Source: a virus. From it: a stretch of DNA of 64,000 nt. The DNA lies in the IMG/VR virus record IMGVR_UViG_3300001679_000053, positions 1 to 64,000 of that record, one strand, 5' to 3'. Below the pieces are notes generated by a model. It did no database searches and was not told the DNA's origin. It saw nothing but the letters and a program-made list of their open reading frames with translations. Made by a program: the position numbers and the translations under genes. Positions 3,972-17,549 of this stretch are shown piece after piece. How positions within the stretch are numbered: the stretch's first letter is position 1; each line of letters starts with the position of its first letter.

Positions 3972-4148
3972 TTAAGAGTACATCGCACTGAGCACCATCC
4001 ATTCTTCTGCGCGAAACCAATCGGGAAACCCAAGCAGTTTGATCCAACTTACCCCTATGACGCTCATTTTCTCTGTTACGAGGAAAGGGCGTTGTGTGTG
4101 AACACTTGGATTTTCAATAACGGTTTTTACCAAGTCACCGATTTTCAC
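3972..4148 (-). CDS. KVGDL-family small protein, GTG start
   Basis: 58 aa, read from a GTG at 4148 (K-I-G-D-L-V-K-T). Contains P-F-L-V-T-E-K in place of the G-I-V strand and V-S-W-I-K-L-L as the W strand; the C-terminal 25 residues (F-P-D-W-F-R-A-E-E-W-M-V) are unlike the other members. The first 14 bases of the gene are the last 14 of the upstream gene. Its TAA is followed at once by another ATG in a different frame, which probably complicates expression of the gene at 3791. Confidence 0.75.
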   Translation of the reverse strand: MKIGDLVKTVIENPSVHTQRPFLVTEKMSVIGVSWIKLLGFPDWFRAEEWMVLSAMYS

Positions 4149-4314
4149 TGATCACCGCCGCTTCGTCTGCTTCCCATTGGTCGATCTGACCGTTGTGCAG
4201 CACTTTTATATCCAGAGGATCGCCATACTGATCCCGGATAAGGATCTGCGTAACCACGCCAATCGTGTCGGGATAGGCGACCGGACACAGGCATACCAGA
4301 TCACCGACTTTCAT
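4135..4314 (-). CDS. KVGDL-family small protein
   Basis: 59 aa: M-K-V-G-D-L-V-C-L-C, T-I-G-V-V-T-Q, I-K-V-L-H-N-G, then A-A-V-I-S-E-N-R at the end. That C-terminus is dictated by DNA that also encodes the N-terminus of the next protein. Its own start sits in the 14-nt overlap with the gene at 4301-4459. Confidence 0.8.
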   Translation of the reverse strand: MKVGDLVCLCPVAYPDTIGVVTQILIRDQYGDPLDIKVLHNGQIDQWEADEAAVISENR

Positions 4315-4459
4315 TGATAACCTTCAATATCTTGGGGTTGTCCCATTCCGGCAACAATCCAAACCATCCGACAAATACTTGACCGTCCCGATCATCTTCA
4401 CCGATCTCAAGTATCAACCCGTGATAACCCCGAAACTCCACCAATGCGCCAACTTTCAT
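4301..4459 (-). CDS. KVGDL-family small protein
   Basis: 52 aa, M-K-V-G-A-L-V-E-F-R (Ala for Asp in the motif), G-L-I-L-E-I-G-E-D-D, F-V-G-W-F-G-L-L-P-E-W-D. A duplicate of the protein at 2704-2853, with added C-terminal K-V-I-N-E-S-R from the overlap. ATGA overlap with the upstream gene. Confidence 0.8.
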   Translation of the reverse strand: MKVGALVEFRGYHGLILEIGEDDRDGQVFVGWFGLLPEWDNPKILKVINESR

Positions 4460-4659
4460 GCTGTTATCCTGTTCATCCATTTCAAAACTCCACGATCAAT
4501 GATCGTCGGGGTTGCCTCTCCGACCAGCAAAACTTGATGGTTCTCGATGGTCGAGCCATCGTCAAAGTGAATAAAAGCCTCACCGAGATAAACGGCCAGC
4601 CGCCCATACAGGCGCATGGACACGGTTCCTTCAAATCTATACAAATCACCGACTTTCAT
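4456..4659 (-). CDS. KVGDL-family small protein
   Basis: 67 aa from the ATG at 4659 (M-K-V-G-D-L-Y-R-F-E). An in-frame ATG at 4710 would add 17 residues that overlap the upstream gene and break the family pattern, so the shorter form is chosen. Central A-V-Y-L-G-E-A-F-I-H-F-D-D-G-S is a longer version of the family W strand. C-terminus W-M-N-R-I-T-A is not of the S-E-S-R type because the next overlap is ATGA, not 14 nt. Confidence 0.8.
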   Translation of the reverse strand: MKVGDLYRFEGTVSMRLYGRLAVYLGEAFIHFDDGSTIENHQVLLVGEATPTIIDRGVLKWMNRITA

Positions 4660-4813
4660 AGATGACCTCCCACATTCTCGGGTCGCAGGTTTCGGGCGTG
4701 GTTGACCCAACGACCAACACTTTGACCCGCAAGAACCCCATCGCGGCGATATTCAATACCACCGCAACGCAGCCCGGATTTCGCTTTGGTCTGATCAGAT
4801 CACCGACTTTCAT
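4646..4813 (-). CDS. KVGDL-family small protein
   Basis: 55 aa: M-K-V-G-D-L-I-R-P-K, V-A-V-V-L-N-I, R-V-K-V-L-V-V-G-S, ending W-E-V-I-Y-E-S-R. The GGAGGT that serves as ribosome site for the next gene encodes E-V in this C-terminus. Both gene ends are 14-nt overlaps. Confidence 0.8.
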   Translation of the reverse strand: MKVGDLIRPKRNPGCVAVVLNIAAMGFLRVKVLVVGSTTPETCDPRMWEVIYESR

Positions 4814-5117
4814 TTTTCTGAGCCTCCACGTGCTTACACTTTCGACGCCAGCCGAAACCGGGACACGTACAGGTCCACGTTCCTCCGTTGTCGGTTACAG
4901 TGTAGGTATTCCCCTTGCTGCCTTGAACCTGCCAGGAGCGAACGTCACGCGATACAGCGGGTGTTTCACGCTGCTCCACGATCATATACTTGCCAACCTC
5001 GTCGAGAGTCAGCGCATCAGGCACTTCCACCCAATGCTCGCCGGATACCGCCCACTTCTGACCGGATCGATCAGTGTAGAGCATCGGATTCATGCTGACA
5101 ACGATAGGCAGATCCAT
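4800..5117 (-). CDS. SWIM zinc-finger protein
   Basis: 105 aa. Residues about 70-98 form a SWIM-type zinc site: C83-x-C85-x8-C94-x-H96 after a beta strand (Y-T-V-T-D-N-G-G-T-W-T). SWIM domains bind DNA or protein partners and occur in phage proteins and in bacterial SNF2 ATPases; here the domain stands almost alone. The N-terminal 45 residues are a separate small domain (M-D-L-P-I-V-V-S-M-N). It ends K-N-E-S-R through the 14-nt overlap with a KVGDL gene, so non-family genes can sit in the same overlap scheme. A regulatory role in early infection is inference. Confidence 0.8.
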   Translation of the reverse strand: MDLPIVVSMNPMLYTDRSGQKWAVSGEHWVEVPDALTLDEVGKYMIVEQRETPAVSRDVRSWQVQGSKGNTYTVTDNGGTWTCTCPGFGWRRKCKHVEAQKNESR

Positions 5118-5118
5118 T

Positions 5119-5313
5119 CTATGCCTCCGCTGGTACGATGGTGGCCACGCTCAGGGTTGTAAGAACCTCGCGCTCTTGGTCGTTCAGACGGGGATCACCC
5201 ATCGTTGCTGCCATCAGCAAAGCGGTGATCACCTGCTCGCATCCCACGGCTGTACGCTCGATGGTGGTCAGGTTAGAATCGTCGTCGGTGCGAATGAGCG
5301 GAAGGGTAAGCAT
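5119..5313 (-). CDS. Hypothetical helical protein
   Basis: 64 aa, starts M-L-T-L-P-L-I-R-T-D-D-D and is helical for most of its length (T-A-V-G-C-E-Q-V-I-T-A-L-L-M-A-A-T). First gene behind the promoter at 5340-5368 with AAAGGAGAAAAAATCT before the ATG. The SWIM gene follows directly. No family recognised. Confidence 0.7.
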   Translation of the reverse strand: MLTLPLIRTDDDSNLTTIERTAVGCEQVITALLMAATMGDPRLNDQEREVLTTLSVATIVPAEA

Positions 5314-5339
5314 AGATTTTTTCTCCTTTCTATACCTAT

Positions 5340-5368
5340 AATATAACCGCGAATGGGGCTATCGTCAA
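5340..5368 (-). promoter_or_regulatory. Sigma70-type promoter
   Basis: TTGACG, 17-bp spacer, TATATT (complement of 5363-5368 and 5340-5345), comb copies at the usual 15 and 26 bp upstream, followed by the leader motif ATAGGTATAGAAAGGAG. Confidence 0.9.
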
Positions 5369-5379
5369 GGTTAAAAATG

Positions 5380-5583
5380 TCAAGAGGATGTAAAGTGTTC
5401 TAAGAAGATTTCGTGAAACTTTAACCGCACGTCTGTCCCCAAAAAAACAACCGTGTAAGCCTTGGTGTAGGATTTTGAAGTCTCACCTACTTCCATGATC
5501 AAACCGACCCGATGATCGGGTATTTCAACCTGATGTGTATTATCTTTGATCCTCACCAGATCACCGGGCTTAAACTTGCTCAT
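5380..5583 (-). CDS. KVGDL-family small protein (K-P-G-D-L-V form)
   Basis: 67 aa: M-S-K-F-K-P-G-D-L-V-R-I-K, then V-G-L-I-M-E-V-G, Y-T-V-V-F-L-G-T-D. Lies alone between genes that are not family members. Its stop TGA and final residues F-T-S-S come from the comb of the next promoter (TTTACATCCTCTTGACA). Confidence 0.8.
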   Translation of the reverse strand: MSKFKPGDLVRIKDNTHQVEIPDHRVGLIMEVGETSKSYTKAYTVVFLGTDVRLKFHEIFLEHFTSS

Positions 5584-5910
5584 TCAAAAAGGCTTCGTTT
5601 CGCTCAACGGTGAACACTCCCACACCCTCGGATGCATGATCACAGGGTTGCCCGTCTTGCATTTGGCAAGGTTCACATGACAAGAAGTTGTCATAGAATG
5701 AAAGCCCTTGGCCGGCGCAGTGAAGTCAGCGATGACCATGACACCGGCAGGTGTGCGCTCTCCGATCTTTAAGTCGTAGCTATACAACTCGGCTCGGCCG
5801 CTCTCGTCTGAGATCGAAGCCAAAGAATGCCTGTGATTACGGGCACTTAGCCCATTCTGCCATGCTTTGATGACACCATCGTTTTTTAGTCTCGGTCCTG
5901 AGAATGACAT
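5584..5910 (-). CDS. Hypothetical protein
   Basis: 108 aa. Contains several strands and conserved-looking basic and Cys/His positions (N-H-R-H-S-L-A-S near the N-terminus, H-V-N-L-A-K-C-K-T near residue 80, H-P-R-V-W-E-C near 95), which might bind a metal. ATG at 5910 follows GGAG. Downstream of the metallopeptidase/VWA gene and probably cotranscribed with it. No family recognised. Confidence 0.65.
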   Translation of the reverse strand: MSFSGPRLKNDGVIKAWQNGLSARNHRHSLASISDESGRAELYSYDLKIGERTPAGVMVIADFTAPAKGFHSMTTSCHVNLAKCKTGNPVIMHPRVWECSPLSETKPF

Positions 5911-5943
5911 TTTTACTCCATGTCCGGGGAAGTTTAACGCACC

Positions 5944-7167
5944 CTAAGCGTCGATAGCTATGATACGTTCGTTAGTTGAAAAGTAGGGGCGAGCAGCATA
6001 CGTCGCCGTAGTCATCCACATGCGTTGGCACTTGGATGCAACGGGCTTCGGGGCACACAGGTCTGTCAAAACGATGTGACCATCAAATCCACGTTCGTTG
6101 ACGTATTTGGTTGGCGCGTTGAAGCATGTACCTCCGCGCATCACACGCTCGGTCTTTTTGCTCTGTCCTTTTTTCCATGTGTATATCTTGCTCTCGGCCA
6201 CAACGGTATCGAAGGGGATCACGGTAAACTCGGCAATCTCAGCCAGCTTGTTCAACTCGGAGAAGAACGCGGCAAGCATCTGATCATCGACCGATCCAGA
6301 TTGATCAATGCTGATCGCGATCTTGGCTTGGCGACGGACACGCTTGCCCGGATGGATGCGCGGATAACGCTTGTTCAGGCGGCGAGGCGTCGAACGCTTG
6401 TCTGCGCGCTGAGAAGTTTTAACGAAGTAGCGGAGAACCTTGCGCCAATCGATCTTGGTCTGGATGCGATCAAGAATATCCTGACGCATGGACGAGGATA
6501 CTGTACCCCAGTTGCGTGCTTTCTCCGCTTCCTCTGCGGCTTTCTTGAGCGTTTCTTTCATGCGCTCCTTGGCGATTTCCTCAGTTGTGCCATCGACTTC
6601 ACCGAAGCCGTCATGGTCATCGAGCGAGTCAGCGTCACCGAAGGGATCGCCGGAGCCTTCGCCACCTTCGCCGTCGCCTTCGTCCTGATCCTCTTGCATC
6701 TTTTTAAGGGCTTCAAGATACCACTCGTAAGACTTGAACGACGGCAGATCCTTGAATATGCCTTCACCGGGGATGCATGCTTGCATCGGCTCTTTGCCGA
6801 TGGTTGGACCGGGATTTGCTTCGTTGGGCAACTCGTTGGAAATGTGGCAGTTGATCGCCAGATCCATAGCGATGTTATCGATCCGCTTCAAGCCATCGGC
6901 TGGCTTGCGGCTGGTTACGTGCTCAAAGATCAAGTGGTAAAACTCATGCTTCAAAACGCCCAACTTGTGATCGTCGCTAAGCTGCGCGAAAAACTCCGGG
7001 TTATACAGAAGTTCAAACTGAGCGGAGTCGGGGTTGACCCGCACACCGGCAGTCGGGATCGCGGTCGAGGCGATCTTGTCGATCCGCCGCGAGAGCGCAG
7101 CAAAGAAGGGCTCGCGCATCAGAAGGCGAGCGGTGTGCATGTTGAGATTGAAGGGCTTATCGGCCAT
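5944..7167 (-). CDS. Metallopeptidase-like / VWA domain protein, MoxR partner
   Basis: 407 aa. The N-terminal part has a HExxH zinc site (H-E-F-Y-H, residues 74-78) in the putative metallopeptidase domain that is typically fused to a VWA domain (the DUF2201/VWA-like family). The middle (about 155-220) is an acidic low-complexity linker. The C-terminal VWA domain shows a MIDAS-type D-x-S-G-S (residues 288-292). Proteins of this kind work with MoxR-type AAA+ ATPases in metal insertion, remodelling or maturation of a target, and the ATPase is encoded at 7665-8750 in the same direction with only two KVGDL genes between. Its own promoter (7192-7220) and AAAGGAAAAAG site suggest it can also be expressed alone. 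What it acts on in the infected cell is not visible. Confidence 0.9.
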   Translation of the reverse strand: MADKPFNLNMHTARLLMREPFFAALSRRIDKIASTAIPTAGVRVNPDSAQFELLYNPEFFAQLSDDHKLGVLKHEFYHLIFEHVTSRKPADGLKRIDNIAMDLAINCHISNELPNEANPGPTIGKEPMQACIPGEGIFKDLPSFKSYEWYLEALKKMQEDQDEGDGEGGEGSGDPFGDADSLDDHDGFGEVDGTTEEIAKERMKETLKKAAEEAEKARNWGTVSSSMRQDILDRIQTKIDWRKVLRYFVKTSQRADKRSTPRRLNKRYPRIHPGKRVRRQAKIAISIDQSGSVDDQMLAAFFSELNKLAEIAEFTVIPFDTVVAESKIYTWKKGQSKKTERVMRGGTCFNAPTKYVNERGFDGHIVLTDLCAPKPVASKCQRMWMTTATYAARPYFSTNERIIAIDA

Positions 7168-7191
7168 GTTCTTTTTCCTTTCTATACCTAT

Positions 7192-7220
7192 AATATAGCA
7201 CCCAAAAGGGCAAACGTCAA
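7192..7220 (-). promoter_or_regulatory. Sigma70-type promoter with triple TTGACA comb
   Basis: TTGACG, 17-bp spacer, TATATT (complement of 7215-7220 and 7192-7197); comb copies 15 and 26 bp upstream. Heads the metallopeptidase/VWA gene. Confidence 0.9.
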
Positions 7221-7242
7221 GGTAAATGTTGTCAAGTGAATG

Positions 7243-7446
7243 TCAGGGAAGTTTATACATCGCTCGAAGTTTGATCTCATCGAGCCATCCCTGCTCACCA
7301 TCAATATGTAGTTTGAACCTCATCCTTTTGTTGACAAGATCACCATATTTGACACGCGCTGTTTCCTCGCGGTCAAGGATCAGGGCGGGCTTATCGTCGC
7401 GTTTCGACCATACAAGGTCGCCTATTTTAAGTTTGTCGGTCCACAT
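7243..7446 (-). CDS. KVGDL-family small protein
   Basis: 67 aa with a short N-terminal extension (M-W-T-D-K-L-K-I-G-D-L-V-W). P-A-L-I-L-D-R-E takes the G-I-V position; the W strand is replaced by R-F-K-L-H-I-D-G. Overlaps the next family gene upstream by 20 nt. Positioned between the two halves of the MoxR/VWA pair. Confidence 0.75.
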   Translation of the reverse strand: MWTDKLKIGDLVWSKRDDKPALILDREETARVKYGDLVNKRMRFKLHIDGEQGWLDEIKLRAMYKLP

Positions 7447-7633
7447 CGGATATTATGATCAGGTCTTCTTCGTTAAATCGCATGCGCTCATCACTCTTGA
7501 GCCACTTTACCTCGTACTCGATTCGGCGATCTTCTGGTTTAGCTATGAGAACCACGATCCCAAGACCGTGAACCCTCTTATACTGGCGTCCCATTCCGCC
7601 GGGACCGGAGAGGCGAACAATGTCGCCAATCAT
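7427..7633 (-). CDS. KVGDL-family small protein (I-G-D-I-V form)
   Basis: 68 aa from the ATG at 7633: M-I-G-D-I-V-R-L-S-G, G-L-G-I-V-V-L-I, Y-E-V-K-W-L-K-S-D, ending I-I-S-D-V-D-R-Q-T. Longer in-frame starts at 7672 and 7705 exist; 7672 overlaps the stop of the MoxR gene and has GGGGGAG very close by, so start choice is uncertain. The family N-terminus favours 7633. Confidence 0.7.
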   Translation of the reverse strand: MIGDIVRLSGPGGMGRQYKRVHGLGIVVLIAKPEDRRIEYEVKWLKSDERMRFNEEDLIIISDVDRQT

Positions 7634-7664
7634 CGGAGCGCGGAGGGGCGGTCGCCTTACGCTA

Positions 7665-8750
7665 CTATGCATCTCCCCCACCAAGGATCTCAACAAGGTG
7701 ATCACTCACTCGCTTGCCATCAGAAGTCTCAGCCTTGTGCAGAGCAACGACGTTGTTAATGTTGTCGGTGTCACCGAGAACGGTCCACAACTTCATAGCT
7801 ACCTCGGAGGGCAGAGCAACAAAGTATTCTGCGAGGTTGGTGATCTGGCTCTCGGCCAGATCTTCCTTGAATACACCGGATGCCTCAAACTTCTCAATCA
7901 TGGCAGCGTGGTCATTGATACCCCACTTCTCACACTTGGAGAGATCGCCGGCATCAAGAATATCCTCGATGGTTACTTGCCATTCGTACTTTTCAACAAA
8001 GTCACGAAGGGACACAGCCGCCTCAAAACCAAGGAACGCAGTCGCAAGGTTGAACAGCATATCGCGATCGCCATCCTCATCGAACACGCCAACGGACGCA
8101 GCGGTATCGCTATAACGCGCCCATGAGCGGCGAGAAGGATAAACCTTGTTAGGCTCAAAATCACCCTCATGCTCCAGATGCTTCCGGTTATGGTTAATGA
8201 AGTCCCACACAACGGAGGGAATCCGGCCATTTGCCCACTTGAGCCAATCTTCGGTTGAAGGTTCAACATCGAACACGGTCCAACGGTCAAGTTCTGCCGG
8301 GTCCATTTCACCGACTTGGTACTGCGCGCCATGCTCGCCACCATTGACGGCAGCGACGATCAGAGTCTCAGGGTGCAGATGCCAACCGTTGATCTTGCGG
8401 CTATCAGTCAACTCAAACAGCCCTTGACGGACCTCTTGAGTCGCACGGTCAACCTCGTCCAAGAACAGCAACACGGGCTGCTCACAGGCTGTTACAAGCC
8501 AATCAGGGGCGTTCCACGTGGTACATTTGCGACCATTGATCGCGGTATCCGCCGTATCGGGCAGACCCAAAAGATCACCCTCGGTCATCTGCGATGCGCG
8601 GCGCTCCACAATCGGAAGCTCGCGAGTCTCTGCGATCTGGTAGACCACTTCGGACTTGCCGACACCGTGGCGACCACGGATAAGCACGGGAAGCCGTGAG
8701 TTGAGTACGTGAGGGGCGACAGCGAGAAATGTTGCGAAGTCGATAGCCAT
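7665..8750 (-). CDS. moxR: MoxR-type AAA+ ATPase
   Basis: 361 aa. Walker A G-R-H-G-V-G-K-S (26-33), Walker B L-L-F-L-D-E-V-D-R-A (94-103) and a sensor-1 segment I-V-A-A-V-N-G-G near 131 place it in the MoxR branch of AAA+ ATPases; the helical C-terminal third is larger than usual. MoxR proteins act as chaperone-like motors with VWA-domain partners, and such a partner is encoded at 5944-7167. Driven by its own promoter at 8801-8829. In a phage the pair could remodel a host complex or mature a virion protein; this is inference. Confidence 0.92.
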   Translation of the reverse strand: MAIDFATFLAVAPHVLNSRLPVLIRGRHGVGKSEVVYQIAETRELPIVERRASQMTEGDLLGLPDTADTAINGRKCTTWNAPDWLVTACEQPVLLFLDEVDRATQEVRQGLFELTDSRKINGWHLHPETLIVAAVNGGEHGAQYQVGEMDPAELDRWTVFDVEPSTEDWLKWANGRIPSVVWDFINHNRKHLEHEGDFEPNKVYPSRRSWARYSDTAASVGVFDEDGDRDMLFNLATAFLGFEAAVSLRDFVEKYEWQVTIEDILDAGDLSKCEKWGINDHAAMIEKFEASGVFKEDLAESQITNLAEYFVALPSEVAMKLWTVLGDTDNINNVVALHKAETSDGKRVSDHLVEILGGGDA

Positions 8751-8800
8751 GATGTTTGCTCCAAGTTGGGAGGGTTGTTGTTTCTTTGCCTTACTCTATA

Positions 8801-8829
8801 AATATAACACAGTAAGGTCTTTACGTCAA
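8801..8829 (-). promoter_or_regulatory. Sigma70-type promoter for the MoxR gene
   Basis: TTGACG, 17-bp spacer, TATATT (complement of 8824-8829 and 8801-8806), followed by the alternative leader TATAGAGTAAGG. Comb copies TGACA at 15 and 26 bp upstream. Confidence 0.88.
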
Positions 8830-8851
8830 GTATTTTGGTGTCAGGTAAATG

Positions 8852-8878
8852 TCAGAGGTTTTTGTTATCGGATGACAA
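8852..8878 (-). CDS. Possible 8-codon leader ORF, TTG start
   Basis: Between two promoters a TTG at 8878, preceded by GGAAAGAG, opens an 8-codon frame (M-S-S-D-N-K-N-L) whose TGA is the first element of the next comb. Either a minimal leader peptide or what is left of a deleted gene. Confidence 0.25.
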   Translation of the reverse strand: MSSDNKNL

Positions 8879-8904
8879 CTTTTCTTTCTCTTTCCTACCC
8901 TTAT

Positions 8905-8933
8905 AATATAACCACCTTTTGCCCATAAGTCAA
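8905..8933 (-). promoter_or_regulatory. Second upstream sigma70-type promoter
   Basis: TTGACT, 17-bp spacer, TATATT (complement of 8928-8933 and 8905-8910), comb upstream. No annotated gene before the next promoter about 100 bp on, so it may boost MoxR transcription. Confidence 0.85.
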
Positions 8934-8961
8934 GGCGAGGGCTGTCAAGGGAATGTTAAGT

Positions 8962-9831: not shown

Positions 9832-9855
9832 AATGTTTTTCCTTTCTATACCTAT

Positions 9856-9884: not shown

Positions 9885-9918
9885 GTATTGAGTTGTTAGG
9901 TGATTGTCAAGGGTTGAC

Positions 9919-12131: not shown

Positions 12132-12214
12132 TGTGCTTTCTGTGCGTTGGGAAAAGAGATTTTTGGTAAGAAAAAATGGCGAGAAAAAATCGCGGGATCT
12201 TGCCCTACTCTATA

Positions 12215-12243
12215 AATATAACCCCTATGTGGGGGCGCGTCAA
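12215..12243 (-). promoter_or_regulatory. Sigma70-type promoter with long leader
   Basis: TTGACG, 17-bp spacer, TATATT (complement of 12238-12243 and 12215-12220). The untranslated leader to 12131 is about 75 nt, with short U-runs and a GCGA/TCGC hairpin, longer than for any neighbour. Confidence 0.85.
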
Positions 12244-12255
12244 GGGGACTAACAT

Positions 12256-12480
12256 TTACTTTACATCTTTCTCGTCGTCGGTGCCGTCGAGAATGTTTTG
12301 AAGTGTCAGTATCATTCTAAGGTGCTCGATACTAATAACGCCGGCATCTTCATGTTCAGCGGTAGACGACTCACTGACCAACTGTGTGATCTTATCGAGT
12401 TTAAGCTGCACCTCATGGAGAGGATTGACCACGGATATACCTGTGGAGCCTGGTTTAATATAGCCATCGTGATACGACAT
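12256..12480 (-). CDS. Hypothetical protein
   Basis: 74 aa: Gly/Pro-containing start (S-Y-H-D-G-Y-I-K-P-G-S-T-G) then two acidic helices (V-Q-L-K-L-D-K-I-T-Q-L-V and I-E-H-L-R-M-I-L-T-L-Q-N-I-L). AAAGGAAAC precedes the ATG. Lies directly downstream of the tRNA-Arg gene and shares its transcript. No family recognised. Confidence 0.7.
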   Translation of the reverse strand: MSYHDGYIKPGSTGISVVNPLHEVQLKLDKITQLVSESSTAEHEDAGVISIEHLRMILTLQNILDGTDDEKDVK

Positions 12481-12505
12481 TTTGTTTCCTTTTGTTGTTT
12501 GTGAG

Positions 12506-12582
12506 TGGCACTTCGGATAGGACTTGAACCTATGACCCTCGGCTTAGAAGGCCGATGCTCTATCCAGCTGAGCTACCGAAGC
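12506..12582 (-). tRNA. trnR(ucu): tRNA-Arg (UCU)
   Basis: 77 nt including an encoded CCA. Acceptor GCTTCGG pairs with CCGAAGT (one G-U), D stem GCTC/GAGC, anticodon stem TCGGC/GCCGA with loop CTTCTAA, so anticodon TCT, and T stem with TTCAAGT loop. Would read AGA codons, rare in many bacteria. Behind the promoter at 12591-12619. Confidence 0.95.
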
Positions 12583-12590
12583 ATAACTAT

Positions 12591-12619
12591 ATTATAACTC
12601 AGGCGCTTGTCGAAGTCAA
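12591..12619 (-). promoter_or_regulatory. Promoter of tRNA-Arg
   Basis: TTGACT, 17-bp spacer, TATAAT (complement of 12614-12619 and 12591-12596). The TGA stop of the gene at 12616 lies inside the -35 box. Confidence 0.9.
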
Positions 12620-12819
12620 GCCACGTTTGCAAACGAAATGTCAGGTATAAAATATACGAGGCTTTGACCGGGCATTATAGCAATCGGTTCTTGCCCTTTC
12701 TCTGCATACTTTTCAACAAACTCAGCCCATGCATAGTTTTTGTCATGCCTCTGAGCCGCGAAAGTAAAAGTCCCCATATTTCCTGTGTTTTCTTCTTCAT
12801 AAATGACTGTGTAAATCAT
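12616..12819 (-). CDS. Hypothetical protein
   Basis: 67 aa: M-I-Y-T-V-I-Y-E-E-E, F-T-F-A-A-Q-R-H-D-K-N-Y-A-W-A-E-F-V-E-K-Y-A-E, then I-A-I-M-P-G. A beta-alpha-beta layout. ATG follows AGGAGAG just after the CCA end of a tRNA gene. No family recognised; sits between tRNA genes. Confidence 0.72.
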   Translation of the reverse strand: MIYTVIYEEENTGNMGTFTFAAQRHDKNYAWAEFVEKYAEKGQEPIAIMPGQSLVYFIPDISFANVA

Positions 12820-12839
12820 TTTCTCTCCTATTATAAAAG

Positions 12840-12916
12840 TGGTAGGCTCTGTCGGACTTGAACCGACGACCGATCCGTTATGAGCGGAATGCTCTGACCA
12901 ACTGAGCTAAGAGCCT
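12840..12916 (-). tRNA. trn(cau): tRNA with CAU anticodon (Met or Ile2)
   Basis: 77 nt with encoded CCA. Acceptor AGGCTCT/AGAGCCT, anticodon loop CTCATAA, anticodon CAT. The T arm (GTCGG-TTCAAGT-CCGAC) and lack of initiator features make elongator Met or lysidine-modified Ile2 the options; the loop and arm look closer to Ile2, but I cannot decide. Base pair 27-43 is a U-U mismatch. Confidence 0.93.
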
Positions 12917-12923
12917 GTGATAA

Positions 12924-12999
12924 TGGTGGGACCACTGGGAATCGAACCCAGAACCTAAAGGTTAAAAGCCTTTTGCTCTGCCAGTTGAGCTATGGTCCC
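12924..12999 (-). tRNA. trnK(uuu): tRNA-Lys (UUU)
   Basis: 76 nt with encoded CCA. Acceptor GGGACCA/TGGTCCC, anticodon stem AAAGG/CCTTT with loop CTTTTAA, anticodon TTT. Seven bases separate it from the CAU tRNA, so the two are cotranscribed from upstream of 13412. Confidence 0.95.
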
Positions 13000-13010
13000 T
13001 TTCCTCAAAC

Positions 13011-13412
13011 TTAAAACTCAATGCTCCGGTTGATATAAATGTCACCCCAAAACGCATCGCCTCGCTGCTCATTGTCATCCATTTCTGCGCCAATGCGAAT
13101 AAACTTGAAAAACTCGGTGGCGTGGTCTGTCTTATCTTTCCCTTCCTCGTCTTTCTCGCCTGTGGGAACTTTCTCGCCGTCGCACCAATCCATAAAGTCC
13201 TCGATGGCGTTCACACAAGGGAAGCTATCGTACCATTTGAGCCATCCCCACTTAAATAGGAACGAACCTTTAACGTCACCATAATCTTTGACCATCTGAT
13301 CGGCATCGCCAAAGCACAACTCTCGGGCGGCTTGGGACTTGGCCATCGCGACCATAAACTGTGGCATCACTTCTGGACCCACATACAAAACAACTTCGGA
13401 ACGATAACCCAT
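13011..13412 (-). CDS. Conserved phage protein of the M-G-Y-R-S-E-V type
   Basis: 133 aa, starting M-G-Y-R-S-E-V-V-L-Y-V. Small proteins with this start are common in phage genomes and have no known function. Contains W-G-W-L-K-W-Y and a strand-rich end (F-W-G-D-I-Y-I-N-R-S-I-E-F). Immediately upstream of the tRNA pair in one transcript; AAGGAGAAAAT before the ATG. Confidence 0.85.
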   Translation of the reverse strand: MGYRSEVVLYVGPEVMPQFMVAMAKSQAARELCFGDADQMVKDYGDVKGSFLFKWGWLKWYDSFPCVNAIEDFMDWCDGEKVPTGEKDEEGKDKTDHATEFFKFIRIGAEMDDNEQRGDAFWGDIYINRSIEF

Positions 13413-13431
13413 ATTTTCTCCTTACTCTTAT

Positions 13432-13459
13432 AATATAACCGGGATGGCTATTAGTGCAA
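13432..13459 (-). promoter_or_regulatory. Sigma70-type promoter, 16-bp spacer
   Basis: TTGCAC, 16-bp spacer, TATATT (complement of 13454-13459 and 13432-13437) with full TGACA copies upstream. Serves the gene at 13011 and two tRNA genes. Confidence 0.8.
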
Positions 13460-13481
13460 GCCATTTCTTGTCAAGTGAATG

Positions 13482-13691
13482 TCAGGACGAAGAAACAAGT
13501 TCCCATCTGATAGATACTGTGACAAACTCACCGCTTGGATTGCCCCTTGATGGCTTTAGCACTCTGACGATGATCCCGCTACCATCTGAACAAGGCGCAT
13601 GGTCTATAACAAGCGCAAGAGGGTTGTCAGGAAGGTTCTTGTGCCGCACCAAAGATCCTACGGCGTGGATTGGGTGTCGTTGCTCGGTCAT
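13482..13691 (-). CDS. KVGDL-family small protein (V-G-S-L-V form)
   Basis: 69 aa from ATG at 13691: M-T-E-Q-R-H-P-I-H-A-V-G-S-L-V-R-H-K, A-L-V-I-D-H-A, I-I-V-R-V-L-K-P-S. Has a nine-residue N-terminal extension before the motif. A longer frame back to 13724 merely translates the promoter and ribosome site. Single gene in its unit; ends E-L-V-S-S-S. Confidence 0.78.
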   Translation of the reverse strand: MTEQRHPIHAVGSLVRHKNLPDNPLALVIDHAPCSDGSGIIVRVLKPSRGNPSGEFVTVSIRWELVSSS

Positions 13692-13714
13692 AGTTTTTTC
13701 CTTTCTATACCTAT

Positions 13715-13743
13715 AATATAGCAAAGCATAGCGCCACTGTCAA
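13715..13743 (-). promoter_or_regulatory. Sigma70-type promoter with comb
   Basis: TTGACA, 17-bp spacer, TATATT (complement of 13738-13743 and 13715-13720); comb copies at 15 and 26 bp. Confidence 0.9.
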
Positions 13744-13758
13744 CGCCTAAGTTGTCAA

Positions 13759-14103
13759 CTATTCGTCAACCATAAAGTTTGCTGGGATTGGGGCAACACC
13801 CTTGGGGATCTCGCCGTCAACAATGCCGCCGTGCTTTGCCAGCACATTCGTCACCACTTGAACCGGCACGTATCCGTAAACCGTTTGTGTCGGCTTGTCG
13901 GGTTCTTCTGCCCAGTTCATCAGTAGTTCCTCGCGCTCGCTCGGGTAGCCTACCTCAACTTCTTCATACTTGTCTGCGTCGTTGATGCGCGGTGTGCAGT
14001 ACCCACCATCGAACGCTTGCACACTCATGGTGAACCCATCAGCACACACAACCTGTCGGTTCCTGTTGGAACCAACTGTATTAAAAAACTCATTTACTTG
14101 CAT
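13759..14103 (-). CDS. Hypothetical protein
   Basis: 114 aa from the ATG at 14103, which has an ideal AAGGAG six bases upstream; an in-frame start at 14124 would hide that site. Beginning M-Q-V-N-E-F-F-N-T-V-G-S-N-R-N-R-Q-V-V-C-A-D-G-F-T-M-S-V, it is alpha then beta; near residue 90 V-V-T-N-V-L-A-K-H-G-G-I. No family recognised. Downstream of a family gene. Confidence 0.75.
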   Translation of the reverse strand: MQVNEFFNTVGSNRNRQVVCADGFTMSVQAFDGGYCTPRINDADKYEEVEVGYPSEREELLMNWAEEPDKPTQTVYGYVPVQVVTNVLAKHGGIVDGEIPKGVAPIPANFMVDE

Positions 14104-14120
14104 CTTTATCTCCTTTTTGT

Positions 14121-14405
14121 TCACTTCACAAACTTCAAATCTTTACGCAGGAAATATCCAGACGCGCTGCCGTGATAGATTGTTGTTCCGAATCGGCTCG
14201 CAGGACCATCTTTCTGCATCCAGTTAATATAATAAAATGTGCTTTCATTCTTAGATGTCCATGGCCTGATACGTGGGTTATTTTTCACACACACAACCAG
14301 CCCCACAAGGGACTTTTTACCATCCCAAATCTTGTTCTTCCATGTCCACATCGGTTCTGAACATAACGAATATGTTGACAATGTTACCAAATCACCGACT
14401 TTCAT
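14121..14405 (-). CDS. KVGDL-family protein, long form
   Basis: 94 aa from the ATG at 14405, the longest typical member: M-K-V-G-D-L-V-T-L-S, then an inserted W-T-W-K-N-K-I-W-D-G-K-K segment before L-V-G-L-V-V-C-V, F-Y-Y-I-N-W-M-Q-K-D-G. Ends L-K-F-V-K. Upstream start at 14450 rejected since it lies in the neighbouring gene. Confidence 0.8.
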   Translation of the reverse strand: MKVGDLVTLSTYSLCSEPMWTWKNKIWDGKKSLVGLVVCVKNNPRIRPWTSKNESTFYYINWMQKDGPASRFGTTIYHGSASGYFLRKDLKFVK

Positions 14406-14568
14406 TGATAACCTCCAAATGCCTCGCCGCAAAGGATCGTATGCGACCACCCACCAAAACCTGATATTGGGTTGTGGAATACTCGGGTGTATTTTTGACG
14501 ATAACCCCCATCACTCCAGCGAGTTCAAACCTTGCGTAACGACTCTTTACCAAATCACCGACTTTCAT
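14392..14568 (-). CDS. KVGDL-family small protein
   Basis: 58 aa: M-K-V-G-D-L-V-K-S-R, M-G-V-I-V-K-N-T, Y-Q-V-L-V-G-G-R (Val for the usual Trp), ending L-E-V-I-N-E-S-R. GGAGGTTATCAATG at its 3' end serves the next gene. Confidence 0.8.
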   Translation of the reverse strand: MKVGDLVKSRYARFELAGVMGVIVKNTPEYSTTQYQVLVGGRIRSFAARHLEVINESR

Positions 14569-14735
14569 GCTGCGCTCATCACTTCATAGTTGAGTCTATC
14601 GTGTGTGAGGTTCCAAGTCGCCCACATTCGATAGTTGGTCTTCATATTATGTAACAGTGCATCGTCACCGACAACACACATAACTAACCATATCGTTCCA
14701 TTCGCTTGCATACGCACCAGATCACCGATTTTCAT
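14565..14735 (-). CDS. KVGDL-family small protein
   Basis: 56 aa from the ATG at 14735: M-K-I-G-D-L-V-R-M-Q, I-W-L-V-M-C-V-V-G, Y-R-M-W-A-T-W-N. The ATG overlaps the stop of the 45-aa basic protein by four bases (ATGA). Ends V-M-S-A-A. Confidence 0.8.
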   Translation of the reverse strand: MKIGDLVRMQANGTIWLVMCVVGDDALLHNMKTNYRMWATWNLTHDRLNYEVMSAA

Positions 14736-14869
14736 ACTCGCACCTTTCCTCGGCATGCCTTTTTGTTCGCTGCCTTCTTGCGATCCTTCATCGCTCCGGC
14801 GAGCCGAAAATGTGCGGCGACTGCGATCCAGTTGCGGCGCTTCGGGGTGTTGGTCTTTTTCTTCTTCAT
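14732..14869 (-). CDS. 45-aa highly basic protein, probably leaderless
   Basis: 45 aa, 17 of them Lys or Arg: M-K-K-K-K-T-N-T-P-K-R-R-N-W-I-A-V, then M-K-D-R-K-K-A-A-N-K-K. The pattern N-W-I-A-V-A-x-H-F-R...K-D-R-K-K-A-A resembles small basic phage proteins containing N-P-V-A-K-H and D-R-K-K segments, known only by recurrence; likely nucleic-acid binding. Its ATG begins exactly where the transcript should begin (six bases after the -10 box), so it is expected to be read without a ribosome site. Confidence 0.75.
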   Translation of the reverse strand: MKKKKTNTPKRRNWIAVAAHFRLAGAMKDRKKAANKKACRGKVRV

Positions 14870-14875
14870 ACCTAT

Positions 14876-14904
14876 AATATAACACCCATTTGCCCCAATG
14901 TCAA
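14876..14904 (-). promoter_or_regulatory. Sigma70-type promoter, leaderless output
   Basis: TTGACA, 17-bp spacer, TATATT (complement of 14899-14904 and 14876-14881), then ATAGGT and ATG. In the other promoters the same place reads ATAG, so a single-base loss created the start codon. Confidence 0.85.
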
Positions 14905-14905
14905 G

Positions 14906-15112
14906 TCAAGAACCTGTCAAGTAAACCACATCATCGTTTCTTTGGTTGACCATACATTTATAACCATCGATCCATACAATCCATATCAAGTCTTTCCAGC
15001 CTCCAGTTTGCCGATCATCATGCTCATAGCTGTCGAGTACAATGCCGGGGTTAGACCAGTCATCATCACCGAACGATTTTGGCTTGAACGATATGAGATC
15101 ACCGACTTTCAC
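14906..15112 (-). CDS. KVGDL-family small protein, GTG start
   Basis: 68 aa: K-V-G-D-L-I-S-F-K-P, N-P-G-I-V-L-D-S-Y, I-W-I-V-W-I-D-G-Y. Ends V-Y-L-T-G-S, read from the TTGACAGGTTCTTGA words of the promoter. The in-frame start at 15184 is rejected. Last gene of an eleven-gene run that begins at 16640. Confidence 0.8.
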   Translation of the reverse strand: MKVGDLISFKPKSFGDDDWSNPGIVLDSYEHDDRQTGGWKDLIWIVWIDGYKCMVNQRNDDVVYLTGS

Positions 15113-15260
15113 TGATAACCTCCCCGCTCCAGTCATATATCCAATACTCATAGTTGCCATCAAGCGAGCGCACAAGAGCGCCACCTTTCACATTAGTAAC
15201 CATAACCATACCGATATACACCACGGGAGCATTTACGCGAACCAGATCACCGACCTTCAC
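15099..15260 (-). CDS. KVGDL-family small protein, GTG start
   Basis: 53 aa: K-V-G-D-L-V-R-V-N, V-V-Y-I-G-M-V-M-V, G-A-L-V-R-S-L-D-G, Y-W-I-Y-D-W-S-G-E-V-I-S-E-S-R. Both ends are 14-nt overlaps; GGGGAGG as ribosome site for the next gene. Confidence 0.8.
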   Translation of the reverse strand: MKVGDLVRVNAPVVYIGMVMVTNVKGGALVRSLDGNYEYWIYDWSGEVISESR

Positions 15261-15426
15261 TGATCACCTCAAGATATTGTTGTTCTATGCTCCGTTCATT
15301 AAGCCAGTCGCCACTCCACAAAGCCTCTACATACACCAAGCCCGGTGGTCCGTCACGGCTAACCTTTGTGACTATGCCTGTGTGCCACTCGGCATGCCTA
15401 TGTTTAATCAAATCACCTACTTTCAC
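15247..15426 (-). CDS. KVGDL-family small protein, GTG start
   Basis: 59 aa: K-V-G-D-L-I-K-H-R-H, H-T-G-I-V-T-K-V-S, V-Y-V-E-A-L-W-S-G-D, ending L-E-V-I-S-E-G-R. His-rich near the N-terminus (H-R-H-A-E-W-H). Confidence 0.8.
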   Translation of the reverse strand: MKVGDLIKHRHAEWHTGIVTKVSRDGPPGLVYVEALWSGDWLNERSIEQQYLEVISEGR

Positions 15427-15601
15427 TGATCACCTTCAAGTTTCGTTTCATGGCATAGCCGCTGTCACTTGTGCCATGGCCGCCATCGAGATACTTAATC
15501 CATGCGCCTTCGCGATCCCATTCTTCGACCCGAACAACAATAGCTTTCCTAAACTTGTTCTTGCACCACTTTTCAATCTCGACCAGATCACCTATTTTCA
15601 C
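15413..15601 (-). CDS. KVGDL-family small protein, GTG start
   Basis: 62 aa: K-I-G-D-L-V-E-I-E-K, K-A-I-V-V-R-V-E-E-W, A-W-I-K-Y-L-D-G-G-H, ending L-K-V-I-S-E-S-R. Unusually basic near residues 11-20. Confidence 0.8.
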   Translation of the reverse strand: MKIGDLVEIEKWCKNKFRKAIVVRVEEWDREGAWIKYLDGGHGTSDSGYAMKRNLKVISESR

Positions 15602-15773
15602 TGATCACCACCAACTCACGCTCTTTCCACATGCCCATCGACCACTCCGGGCAATCCCATAAAACTTTATATTCTTCACAGTCCAGGTCACCTTGAAAAC
15701 TACCAACAATCACACCAATCTTGGGGTGACCATTTCCTCGCCACTTTAGTTTAACCAGATCACCGACTTTCAT
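15588..15773 (-). CDS. KVGDL-family small protein
   Basis: 61 aa: M-K-V-G-D-L-V-K-L-K-W-R-G-N-G-H-P-K-I-G-V-I-V, Y-K-V-L-W-D-C-P-E-W, ending L-V-V-I-S-E-N-R. Sister of the protein at 11115-11300; the shared G-N-G-H-P motif does not occur in other members. Confidence 0.82.
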   Translation of the reverse strand: MKVGDLVKLKWRGNGHPKIGVIVGSFQGDLDCEEYKVLWDCPEWSMGMWKERELVVISENR

Positions 15774-15957
15774 TTATCAACTCGATGCATCCAATGGGAT
15801 ACCACGCTTCTTGGCCGGCTTCCAACACTTTAACTAACCCCAAACCATTCGGATGGTTTTCGCTCTTGTTGACTTCCAACACGATGCTCACGAAAAATGG
15901 ATGGGTGATAAAAGGGCGCGATGGTGGTCCCACCTTTACCAGATCGCCTACTTTCAT
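15760..15957 (-). CDS. KVGDL-family small protein
   Basis: 65 aa from the ATG at 15957: M-K-V-G-D-L-V-K-V-G-P-P, V-S-I-V-L-E-V-N-K, L-V-K-V-L-E-A-G-Q-E-A-W, ending E-L-I-N-E-S-R. ATGA overlap with the upstream gene; a start at 15999 would sit inside that gene. Confidence 0.8.
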   Translation of the reverse strand: MKVGDLVKVGPPSRPFITHPFFVSIVLEVNKSENHPNGLGLVKVLEAGQEAWYPIGCIELINESR

Positions 15958-16124
15958 AATACTGGACACATTACCTTGACTAAATGTGGCATCACCCAAC
16001 TGATTCTGCCGTCATTCCATCGGACTATTGGGCGCGCCTCACGGTTGTGGCGATGCCATCCAACTATAATACCCAACATGCCACCCTCAGATTTAAGGCT
16101 TCTCACCAGATCACCGACCTTCAC
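15954..16124 (-). CDS. KVGDL-family small protein, GTG start
   Basis: 56 aa: K-V-G-D-L-V-R-S-L-K, M-L-G-I-I-V-G-W, P-I-V-R-W-N-D-G-R-I-S-W. Ends V-K-V-M-C-P-V-L because its downstream junction is ATGA. Confidence 0.8.
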   Translation of the reverse strand: MKVGDLVRSLKSEGGMLGIIVGWHRHNREARPIVRWNDGRISWVMPHLVKVMCPVL

Positions 16125-16287
16125 TGATCACCCTCAAATACTCTGCCCACTCTATCGAATCGTCGCCGTCAAGCCATTTGACGCGCACGGCTGGGCCGTT
16201 ATTATAGTTATCGTCACCATCGCCTACTTCCGTGACAATGCCCCGAATCATATGATGGGGGGATTCTACCAAATCACCTATTTTCAT
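16111..16287 (-). CDS. KVGDL-family small protein
   Basis: 58 aa: M-K-I-G-D-L-V-E-S-P, R-G-I-V-T-E-V-G-D-G-D-D, V-R-V-K-W-L-D-G-D-D-S, ending L-R-V-I-S-E-G-R. Shows the family consensus W-L-D-G-D clearly. Confidence 0.82.
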   Translation of the reverse strand: MKIGDLVESPHHMIRGIVTEVGDGDDNYNNGPAVRVKWLDGDDSIEWAEYLRVISEGR

Positions 16288-16444
16288 TTAATCTCTCCAA
16301 AAACTCTGCTGTATGCCAAGAAGCATCACCATCGAGCCACACAACCATAACCGCATCATCATCACCGATTTCTTCAGGATCAATGTGCGAAACTATGCCG
16401 ATGTATTTGCCTTCAACGTCTCTTACCAAATCACCGACTTTCAC
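16274..16444 (-). CDS. KVGDL-family small protein, GTG start
   Basis: 56 aa from GTG at 16444: K-V-G-D-L-V-R-D-V-E, I-G-I-V-S-H-I-D-P-E-E-I-G-D, M-V-V-W-L-D-G-D-A-S-W, ending E-R-L-N-E-N-R. Shares I-D-P-E-E-I-G-D with the protein at 11671. The in-frame ATG at 16615 is inside the neighbouring gene and is rejected. Confidence 0.8.
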   Translation of the reverse strand: MKVGDLVRDVEGKYIGIVSHIDPEEIGDDDAVMVVWLDGDASWHTAEFLERLNENR

Positions 16445-16640
16445 TGATAACCTCCAGAATCCGGGGAGGAACTCTTTCCACAATCTCGCCAGATGCCCAC
16501 AATACTGAGACGGCTGGTGCTTCAATATGATCACCGGGTAGCTCAGCAACAACAACGCCTGTTCTGACATATTCGCCAGTCCAGAACCGCTGGGATTTGG
16601 GAACGTCACTTTCAAACATCACAAGGTCACCGACTTTCAT
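16431..16640 (-). CDS. KVGDL-family small protein, first of a long run
   Basis: 69 aa: M-K-V-G-D-L-V-M-F-E, R-T-G-V-V-V-A-E-L, V-S-V-L-W-A-S-G-E, ending I-L-E-V-I-S-E-S-R. First gene after the promoter at 16665-16693 with AAAGGAAG as its site; the ten genes that follow depend on coupling rather than their own leaders. Confidence 0.82.
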   Translation of the reverse strand: MKVGDLVMFESDVPKSQRFWTGEYVRTGVVVAELPGDHIEAPAVSVLWASGEIVERVPPRILEVISESR

Positions 16641-16664
16641 ATATTTCTTCCTTTCTATACCTAT

Positions 16665-16693
16665 AATATAGCACCCAAACGGGTGTTAGTCAA
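16665..16693 (-). promoter_or_regulatory. Sigma70-type promoter of the long KVGDL run
   Basis: TTGACT, 17-bp spacer, TATATT (complement of 16688-16693 and 16665-16670), comb at 15 and 26 bp. Next promoter downstream is at 14876. Confidence 0.9.
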
Positions 16694-16724
16694 CCTCTAA
16701 GTTGTCAAGTGATTGTTAAGTGCG

Positions 16725-16931
16725 TTAAACTTTTTTGGTCTTCCCGCTTGGGCTGATAACTTTTAGGGCTGAACGCTGCCACCATCCGATAGGATAACTT
16801 GCGGATAACCACCGAACATTACATTCGATTCCCTTAGTCTCCATCACCAACCCAACGCAAGAAATGTCGCGCTCCACATCGTAGAGTGCGACAACAAGAT
16901 CACCGATGCTGGGGGCGCCGCTAGCTTTCAT
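16725..16931 (-). CDS. KVGDL-family small protein (I-G-D-L-V form)
   Basis: 68 aa from the ATG at 16931: M-K-A-S-G-A-P-S-I-G-D-L-V-V-A, S-C-V-G-L-V-M-E-T, C-N-V-R-W-L-S-A-S, ending with a basic S-G-K-T-K-K-V. A TTG one codon upstream is also possible. The overlap with the upstream gene is 11 nt. Confidence 0.8.
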   Translation of the reverse strand: MKASGAPSIGDLVVALYDVERDISCVGLVMETKGIECNVRWLSASYPIGWWQRSALKVISPSGKTKKV

Positions 16932-17142
16932 CAATAGGTTCCAAGTCTGTCAACGGAATGGTCCGGCGGTTACCGTTAATCAACACAACCGCGTGAGGCT
17001 CTGGATCGATCTTGCGCCAGTCTACCTTGATGCCAAGTTCTTCTGTGCGCCAGCATTTCTTTTCAACAAAATCAACAATAAGCCCAGCGCGGAACGATGC
17101 TCCACGCGAGGACGGAAGTTTAACTAAGTCACCTACTTTCAT
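16921..17142 (-). CDS. KVGDL-family small protein
   Basis: 73 aa: M-K-V-G-D-L-V-K-L-P, R-A-G-L-I-V-D-F-V-E-K-K, I-K-V-D-W-R-K-I-D-P, ending L-E-P-I-D-E-S. Longer than average between the two core strands. Confidence 0.8.
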   Translation of the reverse strand: MKVGDLVKLPSSRGASFRAGLIVDFVEKKCWRTEELGIKVDWRKIDPEPHAVVLINGNRRTIPLTDLEPIDES

Positions 17143-17323
17143 TTATCACCACCAATCTTTGAGTATCAAGCCATCCAGTTTCTCCGTTGCTAAACAACAC
17201 CTGTGCTGACTCTGTATCGTGTCCAGTCTTAGACATCTTCACCACCAAACCATGCTCCGCAGTATAGCGATCCATGTCATCGTTCAAAATACTTTCAAAC
17301 CTTACCAGATCACCTACTTTCAT
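17129..17323 (-). CDS. KVGDL-family small protein
   Basis: 64 aa from the ATG at 17323: M-K-V-G-D-L-V-R-F-E, H-G-L-V-V-K-M-S, A-Q-V-L-F-S-N-G-E-T-G-W, ending L-V-V-I-N-E-S-R. Upstream gene is not a family member yet joins it by the same 14-nt overlap. Confidence 0.8.
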   Translation of the reverse strand: MKVGDLVRFESILNDDMDRYTAEHGLVVKMSKTGHDTESAQVLFSNGETGWLDTQRLVVINESR

Positions 17324-17549
17324 CAGGCTTCTCCTTTTGGCAAATGATAACAGCATCTTCCAGCTCGGAAAGTTTAACTACATAAAACACTTTCCCTTCC
17401 TTGATCTCGCATGGAAACGCAGACACGGGCAGCACCGCCATCGCGGGGCCACCATTCGTTGCTGGATTTAGATTAAGTTCGACTGTCGCAAACTGACCAT
17501 CGTGAGAATCTATCGTTCCCACCAAAATAAAAACTTTAAGTGCTGTCAT
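17310..17549 (-). CDS. Hypothetical beta-rich protein
   Basis: 79 aa: M-T-A-L-K-V-F-I-L-V-G-T-I-D-S-H-D-G-Q-F, then A-M-A-V-L-P-V-S-A-F and V-F-Y-V-V-K-L-S-E-L-E-D-A. Ends K-P-D-E-S-R through the shared overlap with a KVGDL gene. No family recognised; the first strand and the G-x-I-D turn are unlike the KVGDL fold. Confidence 0.72.
   Translation of the reverse strand: MTALKVFILVGTIDSHDGQFATVELNLNPATNGGPAMAVLPVSAFPCEIKEGKVFYVVKLSELEDAVIICQKEKPDESR

Follow-up and report, generated by a model that had tools for sequence, protein, structure and literature searches.

Arrays of small genes linked by 14-nucleotide overlaps

We analyzed positions 1 to 64,000 (the window) of the viral record IMGVR_UViG_3300001679_000053 from IMG/VR, which belongs to an uncultivated viral contig of 102.5 kb. 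All of the called genes are on the minus strand. The stretch from 2.2 to 18.7 kb contains many near-identical sigma-70-like promoters, tRNA genes, and very small genes. Tandem arrays of these small genes lie largely within positions 3972 to 17549, and their members are linked by a recurring overlap of 14 nucleotides (nt), which we will call the joint. Most of the genes in the arrays belong to one family, whose products are 50-70 amino acids long and divergent (mean column identity 25%), with a fixed start of M-K-V-G-D-L-V.

A sequence-only reading of the window had reported 18 pairs of adjacent genes with an overlap of exactly 14 nt. We found all of them at the positions it implied, on the minus strand and in one phase throughout, when we checked the open reading frames (ORFs) of the window. 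At two of these joints the upstream gene (4800-5117 or 17310-17549) is outside the family, also as reported. The 20-mer that was described at the joint has 2 exact copies, and there are 12 copies with at most 3 mismatches, versus 0.01 expected in shuffled sequences. The same arrays contain additional overlaps that were absent from that reading: five of 4 nt, two of 11 nt, and one of 17 nt. The 11-nt and 17-nt joints have the same phase as the 14-nt joints. The arrays and their joints are as follows.

14906 to 17323, minus strand: MKVGD (SH3/KOW-like) genes in their largest array, split into two operons, with a promoter at 16693 ahead of the second; genes 17129-17323, 16921-17142, 16725-16931, 16431-16640, 16274-16444, 16111-16287, 15954-16124, 15760-15957, 15588-15773, 15413-15601, 15247-15426, 15099-15260, and 14906-15112
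17310 to 17323, minus strand: 14-nt joint; upstream gene 17310-17549 is outside the family; tail ...KPDESR
17129 to 17142, minus strand: 14-nt joint; tail VVINESR
16921 to 16931, minus strand: 11-nt variant joint (ATGAAAGCTAG; stop TAG), found separately by an ab initio gene call; tail PIDES
16431 to 16444, minus strand: 14-nt joint; tail LEVISESR
16274 to 16287, minus strand: 14-nt joint; tail ERLNENR
16111 to 16124, minus strand: 14-nt joint; tail RVISEGR
15954 to 15957, minus strand: 4-nt joint (ATGA) within the array
15760 to 15773, minus strand: 14-nt joint; tail ELINESR
15588 to 15601, minus strand: 14-nt joint; tail VVISENR
15413 to 15426, minus strand: 14-nt joint; tail KVISESR
15247 to 15260, minus strand: 14-nt joint; tail EVISEGR
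15099 to 15112, minus strand: 14-nt joint; tail EVISESR
14121 to 14735, minus strand: array of genes 14565-14735, 14392-14568, and 14121-14405
14565 to 14568, minus strand: 4-nt joint; tail EVMSAA
14392 to 14405, minus strand: 14-nt joint; tail EVINESR
14121/14124, minus strand: 4-nt overlap
10792 to 11850, minus strand: arrays of genes 11671-11850, 11493-11681, and 11357-11506, then 11115-11300, 10961-11128, and 10792-10974
11671 to 11681, minus strand: 11-nt variant joint (GTGAAGGTTAA); tail ELLSEG
11493 to 11506, minus strand: 14-nt joint; tail EVVSESR
11115 to 11128, minus strand: 14-nt joint; tail EVVSESR
10961 to 10974, minus strand: 14-nt joint; tail ELVNASR
3791 to 5117, minus strand: SWIM-like gene 4800-5117, then genes 4646-4813, 4456-4659, 4301-4459, 4135-4314, 3972-4148, and 3791-3988
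4800 to 4813, minus strand: 14-nt joint; upstream gene is the SWIM-like 4800-5117; tail AQKNESR
4646 to 4659, minus strand: 14-nt joint; tail EVIYESR
4456 to 4459, minus strand: 4-nt joint
4301 to 4314, minus strand: 14-nt joint; tail KVINESR
4135 to 4148, minus strand: 14-nt joint; tail AVISENR
3972 to 3988, minus strand: 17-nt variant joint in the 14-nt phase, with stop TAA; tail VLSAMYS
2537 to 2853, minus strand: gene pair beyond the studied range, 2704-2853 (paralogue of 4301-4459) and 2537-2707
2704/2707, minus strand: 4-nt overlap that joins 2704-2853 to 2537-2707

A count of overlap lengths across the whole 102.5-kb contig had been proposed as a check, and 14 nt is the commonest length: an ab initio call with a simple home-made gene caller, which missed some short genes, gave 14 overlaps of 14 nt, 7 of 4 nt, 7 of 11 nt, and 4 of 8 nt. 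We also collected related loci, of which 80 were anchored on the neighboring MoxR-like ATPase and 14 on the SWIM-like gene; additional loci were selected by the joint pattern, and these were kept out of the frequencies and used in the breakpoint analyses. Among the anchor-selected relatives, 168 of 198 non-redundant overlaps between family genes (85%) are 14 nt long and 17 are 4 nt long. Another 63 14-nt joints in these relatives have another long ORF upstream.

The array genes encode putative SH3/KOW-like barrels

A structure model built from 77 family members predicts a five-stranded SH3-like barrel (predicted local distance difference test, pLDDT, of 89). In the model, the last strand comprises residues 52-55 (RVIS), and the final three residues are outside any strand. 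Profile searches led to the KOW domains of NusG, Spt5, and uL24 (E = 0.002 for the C-terminal domain of NusG). Fold searches led to SH3-like barrels with template modeling scores of about 0.7-0.77 (best E about 0.02) and to small phage proteins such as T4-type gp30.5. Pfam had no match above cut-off for the family, and neither Pfam nor PHROGs provided a usable family name. The family thus resembles the KOW/SH3-like small barrels (the C-terminal domain of NusG, Spt5, and uL24) and the phage T4 gp30.5/DUF2158-like proteins in both profile and fold, but these matches are weak, and function cannot be transferred from them. The short size of the genes, their tandem arrays, and the sigma-70-like promoters suggest that they are accessory and probably early genes. 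The score of gene 4800-5117 against the SWIM family of Pfam is below the cut-off (E = 0.0089; 16.0 bits versus 19.6), so we call it SWIM-like and no more.

Codon choice in the joint

At the start of the family genes, Gly-Asp is written as GGT GAY, which provides a TGA stop for the upstream frame at nucleotides 12-14. Starts of the AAA type (RTG-AAA-GTC...) offer two stops to the upstream gene, namely ATGA or GTGA (a 4-nt overlap) and GGTGA (a 14-nt overlap). The Gly codon is GGT in all 231 of the overlapped starts, in 72% of the non-overlapped starts, and at 26% of Gly codons genome-wide. Similarly, GTC is used in 71% of overlapped starts, 53% of free starts, and 21% genome-wide.

The paralogues 2704-2853 and 4301-4459 (71% nucleotide identity) illustrate how the two kinds of joint can apparently interconvert: the spacer of 2704-2853 is 1 nt longer, which yields a 4-nt joint and the tail NVIE, with no KVINESR.

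Some joints keep their length with other bases. In locus L018, which has a relative of 4800-5117 and its next gene, the downstream start is ATGCAAGTCGGTAGT, with Asp replaced by Ser and TAG as the upstream stop, and the overlap is still 14 nt. In loci L012, L051, L082, and L033, non-family genes (encoding 161-aa, 110-aa, and SWIM-like proteins) within arrays form 14-nt overlaps from other bases, such as GTGCGGCTGGATAA, GTGCGGTTAGTTAG, or GTGAATCAAGTTAA. Such overlaps hint at selection for the phase or the length itself.

The next gene's start dictates the last three residues

The sequence-only reading had claimed that the C-termini of these proteins are set by nucleic-acid constraints and not by function. 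This holds for the last residues (E/A-S/G/N-R), but not for the V-I-S strand or for the avoidance of tryptophan.

Among family genes upstream of 14-nt joints, 228 of 240 end in R, preceded by S, G, or N. This ending is rare in family genes at 4-nt joints and in terminal family genes, and it almost never occurs without a downstream overlap. The tail of the SWIM-like protein, which is conserved and not in the family, varies with the start that follows it (NESR, NASR, DANR, or HESG), and its relatives without a family gene after them have unrelated tails (for instance, KMH-ESG* versus KMH-EMS*). The last three residues are dictated by the start of the next gene.

Conversely, E-S-R could be a functional C-terminal motif of the family, around which the overlap formed. 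Tryptophan is avoided in the tail (see below) and the arginine is kept via two codons, CGG and AGG, as this would predict. But the motif is absent from family genes that end operons or that precede 4-nt joints, unrelated upstream proteins acquire the tail when a family gene follows, and the paralogue 2704-2853 lacks it because of a 1-nt difference in length. We consider a functional motif to be very unlikely, and the SWIM-like tails, the terminal genes, and the paralogue led us to reject it as the main cause.

The residues just before the tail are another matter. V-I-S is the fifth and last strand of the predicted barrel, and 58% of terminal family genes keep a hydrophobic strand-like end. The choice of E-V is tied to the ribosome site: GAGGT is found within the last 45 nt of 69% of the upstream genes at 14-nt joints, versus 5% of terminal genes.

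The tail itself also seems to be read as protein. In this contig, Val is most often encoded by GTT (34%), and GTT or ATT as codon 3 of a family gene would place Trp directly before the upstream stop. These codons are found at 2 of 231 14-nt joints, versus 18 of 99 non-overlapped starts (P = 1e-8) and 6 of 39 4-nt joints (P = 1e-4), where the upstream frame ends before the codon. With the 4-nt joints as a control, the avoidance of Trp is confined to joints at which the upstream frame runs across the codon, so the tail is apparently translated and under mild constraint at the protein level. This frame-specific avoidance led us to reject the idea that the frames are untranslated.

Initiation at the joint

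GGAGG had been read as the ribosome site of the downstream gene. Of the upstream family genes at 14-nt joints, 51% have it within their last 45 nt, as compared to 4% at 4-nt joints and 3% of terminal genes. Counted by type of joint or start, it is present at 45% of 14-nt joints, 3% of 4-nt joints, and 13% of free starts. A strong Shine-Dalgarno (SD) sequence at 14-nt joints, versus 4-nt joints, suggests direct initiation rather than coupling. We infer that translation of the downstream gene begins for the most part from an SD of its own, located within the upstream gene, and that ribosomes on the upstream frame terminate 11-14 nt beyond this start. As a coupling device, mRNA structure at joints was rejected: the mean minimum free energy in 65-nt windows is -11.6 at joints and -13.8 in gene bodies, so joints are no more folded.

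Classical termination-reinitiation favors very short overlaps and distances (PMC10666635), and prokaryotes usually prefer 4-nt overlaps (PMC3887535); these phages do the reverse. Like the 4-nt and 1-nt start-stop overlaps in these reports, the joint is unidirectional and has its stop within the start region of the next gene. However, the joint is mostly 14 nt long, has a strong internal SD and another phase (its length is 2 modulo 3), and has a standard sequence across unrelated neighbors.

Gene order in related phages

Comparison of gene order with related phages, a check that the sequence-only reading had itself proposed, revealed gain, loss, and swapping of genes with breakpoints in the joint. 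The order of array genes differs strongly among relatives, whereas the anchor genes are retained. We often see insertion/deletion pairs in which every junction is a 14-nt joint. For example, the window has 17310-17549, 17129-17323, and 16921-17142 in succession; in L012, the relative of 17310-17549 is joined directly to the relative of 16921-17142. In L012, L013, L015, and L018, the SWIM-like gene is joined to F11 either directly or via a different inserted gene. In L015 and L012, the sequences of an upstream gene match without a difference as far as the start codon and initial bases of the joint; similarity of the downstream gene begins at this same joint.

We found 273 distinct 14-nt adjacencies, 24 of which recur in at least two loci. 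Among 46 family clusters with at least three members, 37 have two or more upstream partners, and 20 clusters of this size occur both behind a joint and without an upstream overlap. Across 718 joints, pairs with a match on one side or both share the upstream gene only (113), the downstream gene only (90), or both (13), and identity falls from 0.97 at +10 to +14 to 0.34 at +20 to +24.

If one 14-nt pair had been amplified in place, then the copies would have inherited the overlap and their order would be fixed. The start motif is common to all members and some paralogues are close (2704-2853 and 4301-4459), and duplication must have contributed to the arrays. But the members are only about 25% identical, gene orders differ among relatives, and the same joint links non-family genes such as the SWIM-like gene. 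Tandem duplication as the whole explanation is quite unlikely: a fixed order is rejected by the gene-order comparison, and is largely refuted by the insertion/deletion in L012 and by the joint pairs that are alike on one side only.

Another concern is misassembly: because the bases of the joint are repeated, short-read assemblers could have fused genes there that are not true neighbors. In favor of this, every sequence comes from an uncultivated viral contig, and contigs often end near the region. But exact repeats in the window region reach 32 nt at most, and the longest one is a promoter rather than a joint; the 24 recurring adjacencies include the SWIM-like gene to F11 in six loci; and the phase of the joint is kept while the flanks diverge by 10-35%. 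We view an assembly artefact as extremely improbable.

Among loci L011-L090, many contigs end no more than a few kb upstream of the MoxR-like gene, in or near arrays, as expected if gene content varies within populations. In L121, a 14.8-kb stretch has more than 20 family genes, many of them in 14-nt joints, which illustrates how long the arrays can grow. We rejected a spread of the joint into cellular genomes: a search with the strict joint pattern found only 5 stretches in cellular genome contigs, all of which are metagenome-assembled genomes, versus at least 118 in viral contigs.

Are breakpoints targeted or filtered?

The ends of homology blocks are concentrated at the joint: 239 of 350 3' ends (68%) are at 0 to +30, and 228 of 359 5' ends (64%) are at -15 to +15, versus about 15% expected in each case. 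In a comparison with other gene boundaries of the same phages, breakpoints are enriched 3.3-3.4-fold at 14-nt joints. Overlaps of other lengths are enriched only 0.9-fold and 1.6-fold. Genes that overlap through the standard joint are as open to exchange as genes with free borders.

Whether exchange is targeted to gene boundaries or filtered by selection has been discussed for other phages (PMC3029335 and PMC3233612), and these papers cite selection-only mosaicism as the general model. Under that model, illegitimate recombination is random and only exchanges at gene boundaries survive, and our joints would be alike because of the KOW motif, the SD, and the constraints on a start. Several points favor this alternative, or otherwise weigh against a specific role of the joint in recombination. 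Ordinary gene starts and 1/4-nt joints are also enriched for breakpoints (2.2-4.0-fold), and breakpoints per boundary are similar, at 0.55 for 14-nt joints, 0.40-0.41 for non-overlapping starts, and 0.35-0.55 for 1/4-nt joints, so gene-boundary selection alone could place the breakpoints. The shared stretch is about 20-30 nt, which is short for general recombination. Our counts treat related sequences as independent, and we found no close isolated or cultured relatives. Given the density at ordinary gene borders, the data do not support 14-nt joints as unique hotspots of recombination. On the other side are the difference between 14-nt overlaps (3.3-fold) and overlaps of other lengths (a rough Fisher test, in which the ends are dependent, gives P = 1e-4) and a codon choice in the joint (GTC) that goes beyond the need of the protein. 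Selection alone is a serious contender, which we would hesitate to call probable.

A putative standard joint between exchangeable genes

We think it likely that the region is a hypervariable, promoter-rich part of the genome of a marine tailed phage, built from exchangeable small genes that are linked by one standard coding joint. The DNA that joins neighbors is standard over about 30 nt, (T)GGAGGTNRTNA-RTGAAAGTCGGTGATYTGGT. Its ribosome site, GGAGGT, doubles as the E-V codons in the last strand of the upstream protein, and the downstream start codon is one base out of the upstream frame. The Gly-Asp of the downstream KOW motif (GGT GAY) supplies the TGA that ends the upstream gene. Because this TGA is hidden in the next start, upstream genes can do without a stop codon of their own, and the final 3-4 residues of their products are a frame-shifted reading of the next M-K-V-G-D. 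With the same sequence and phase at every joint, a gene could be inserted, deleted, or replaced from joint to joint without breaking its neighbor's frame, start, or stop, and an exchange would alter only the neighbor's floppy tail. The exchanges may be made by homologous or annealing recombination at the shared bases, and selection may keep the joint because it tolerates exchange. More tentatively, the overlap might be a selected, natural assembly joint, whose sequence and phase are kept for recombining genes in and out of polycistronic arrays, with the tail as a scar; we can neither dismiss this view nor favor it outright.

Promoters and neighboring genes

2214 to 18692, minus strand: sigma-70-like promoters (TTGAC-N17-TATATTATA...GGTATAGAAAGGA) that head operons; first bases at 18692, 16693, 14904, 13743, 12619, 12243, 10780, 9884, 8933, 8829, 7220, 5368, 3779, and 2214
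5944 to 8750, minus strand: MoxR-like AAA ATPase near a DUF2201 metallopeptidase/VWA-like protein

We found 21 promoters on the gene strand, of which 14 are within 2.2-18.7 kb, and 0 on the opposite strand. At least 14 promoters, at 2214-18692, are near-identical, and several share the GGTATAGAAAGGA leader behind them. Since the longest exact repeat of the region (32 nt) is one of these promoters, they could form another type of exchange border. The region is probably expressed early. The genes at 5944-8750 are kept in relatives while the surrounding small genes change.

Elsewhere in the window, Pfam identifies phage genes on the minus strand for an IMP dehydrogenase (37897-38928), a GroEL-type chaperonin (32161-33756), and a DNA polymerase III alpha-type polymerase (42480-45935). 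A RecA-family protein is encoded at 54162-55304.

Relationship to known phage modularity

As far as the available accounts describe it, conserved-boundary (linker) mosaicism in phages involves short sequences that are repeated at the borders of mosaic modules. The joint resembles this, in that the same short sequence is present at many gene borders and mosaic breakpoints fall at that sequence. But the border lies within two overlapping frames, an exchange rewrites the C-terminus of the neighbor, and there are tens of copies in one genome. We judge the joint to be a variant of conserved-boundary modularity, with the novelty that the boundary is inside two coding frames.

The promoter early stem-loop cassettes (PeSLs) of T4-type phages (Arbiol 2010, Comeau 2014), as described in PMC4503421, are repeated non-unique DNA between small, probably early genes and are linked to shuffling. 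Near-identical promoters that head operons are a further likeness to the region studied here. PeSLs are described there as non-coding promoter/terminator elements, whereas the joint codes for protein in both neighbors and is internal to operons. We found no PeSL-type promoter with a stem-loop terminator between the shuffled genes: the 14-nt joints are fully coding and the promoters head operons only. In mycobacteriophage Island3, the adjacent genes 67 and 68 have similar C-terminal 18 residues (about 50 bp), which was taken as a site of gene gain or loss (PMC3029335). That is a single event, and the shared tails are not made by reading the next start.

For annotation, these joints are a warning that conserved C-terminal motifs such as ESR can echo the start of the next gene instead of reflecting function. 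The hundreds of natural joints also make it possible to address by counting whether the mosaic borders of phages are targeted or filtered.

The common view is that overlaps hold gene order fixed, since a gene cannot move without damage to its neighbor. In these phages, genes are shuffled intensely alongside a standardized overlap, which may permit the shuffling. If the overlap is a selected assembly joint, then modular evolution would be mediated by coding overlaps throughout a whole lineage of marine phages.

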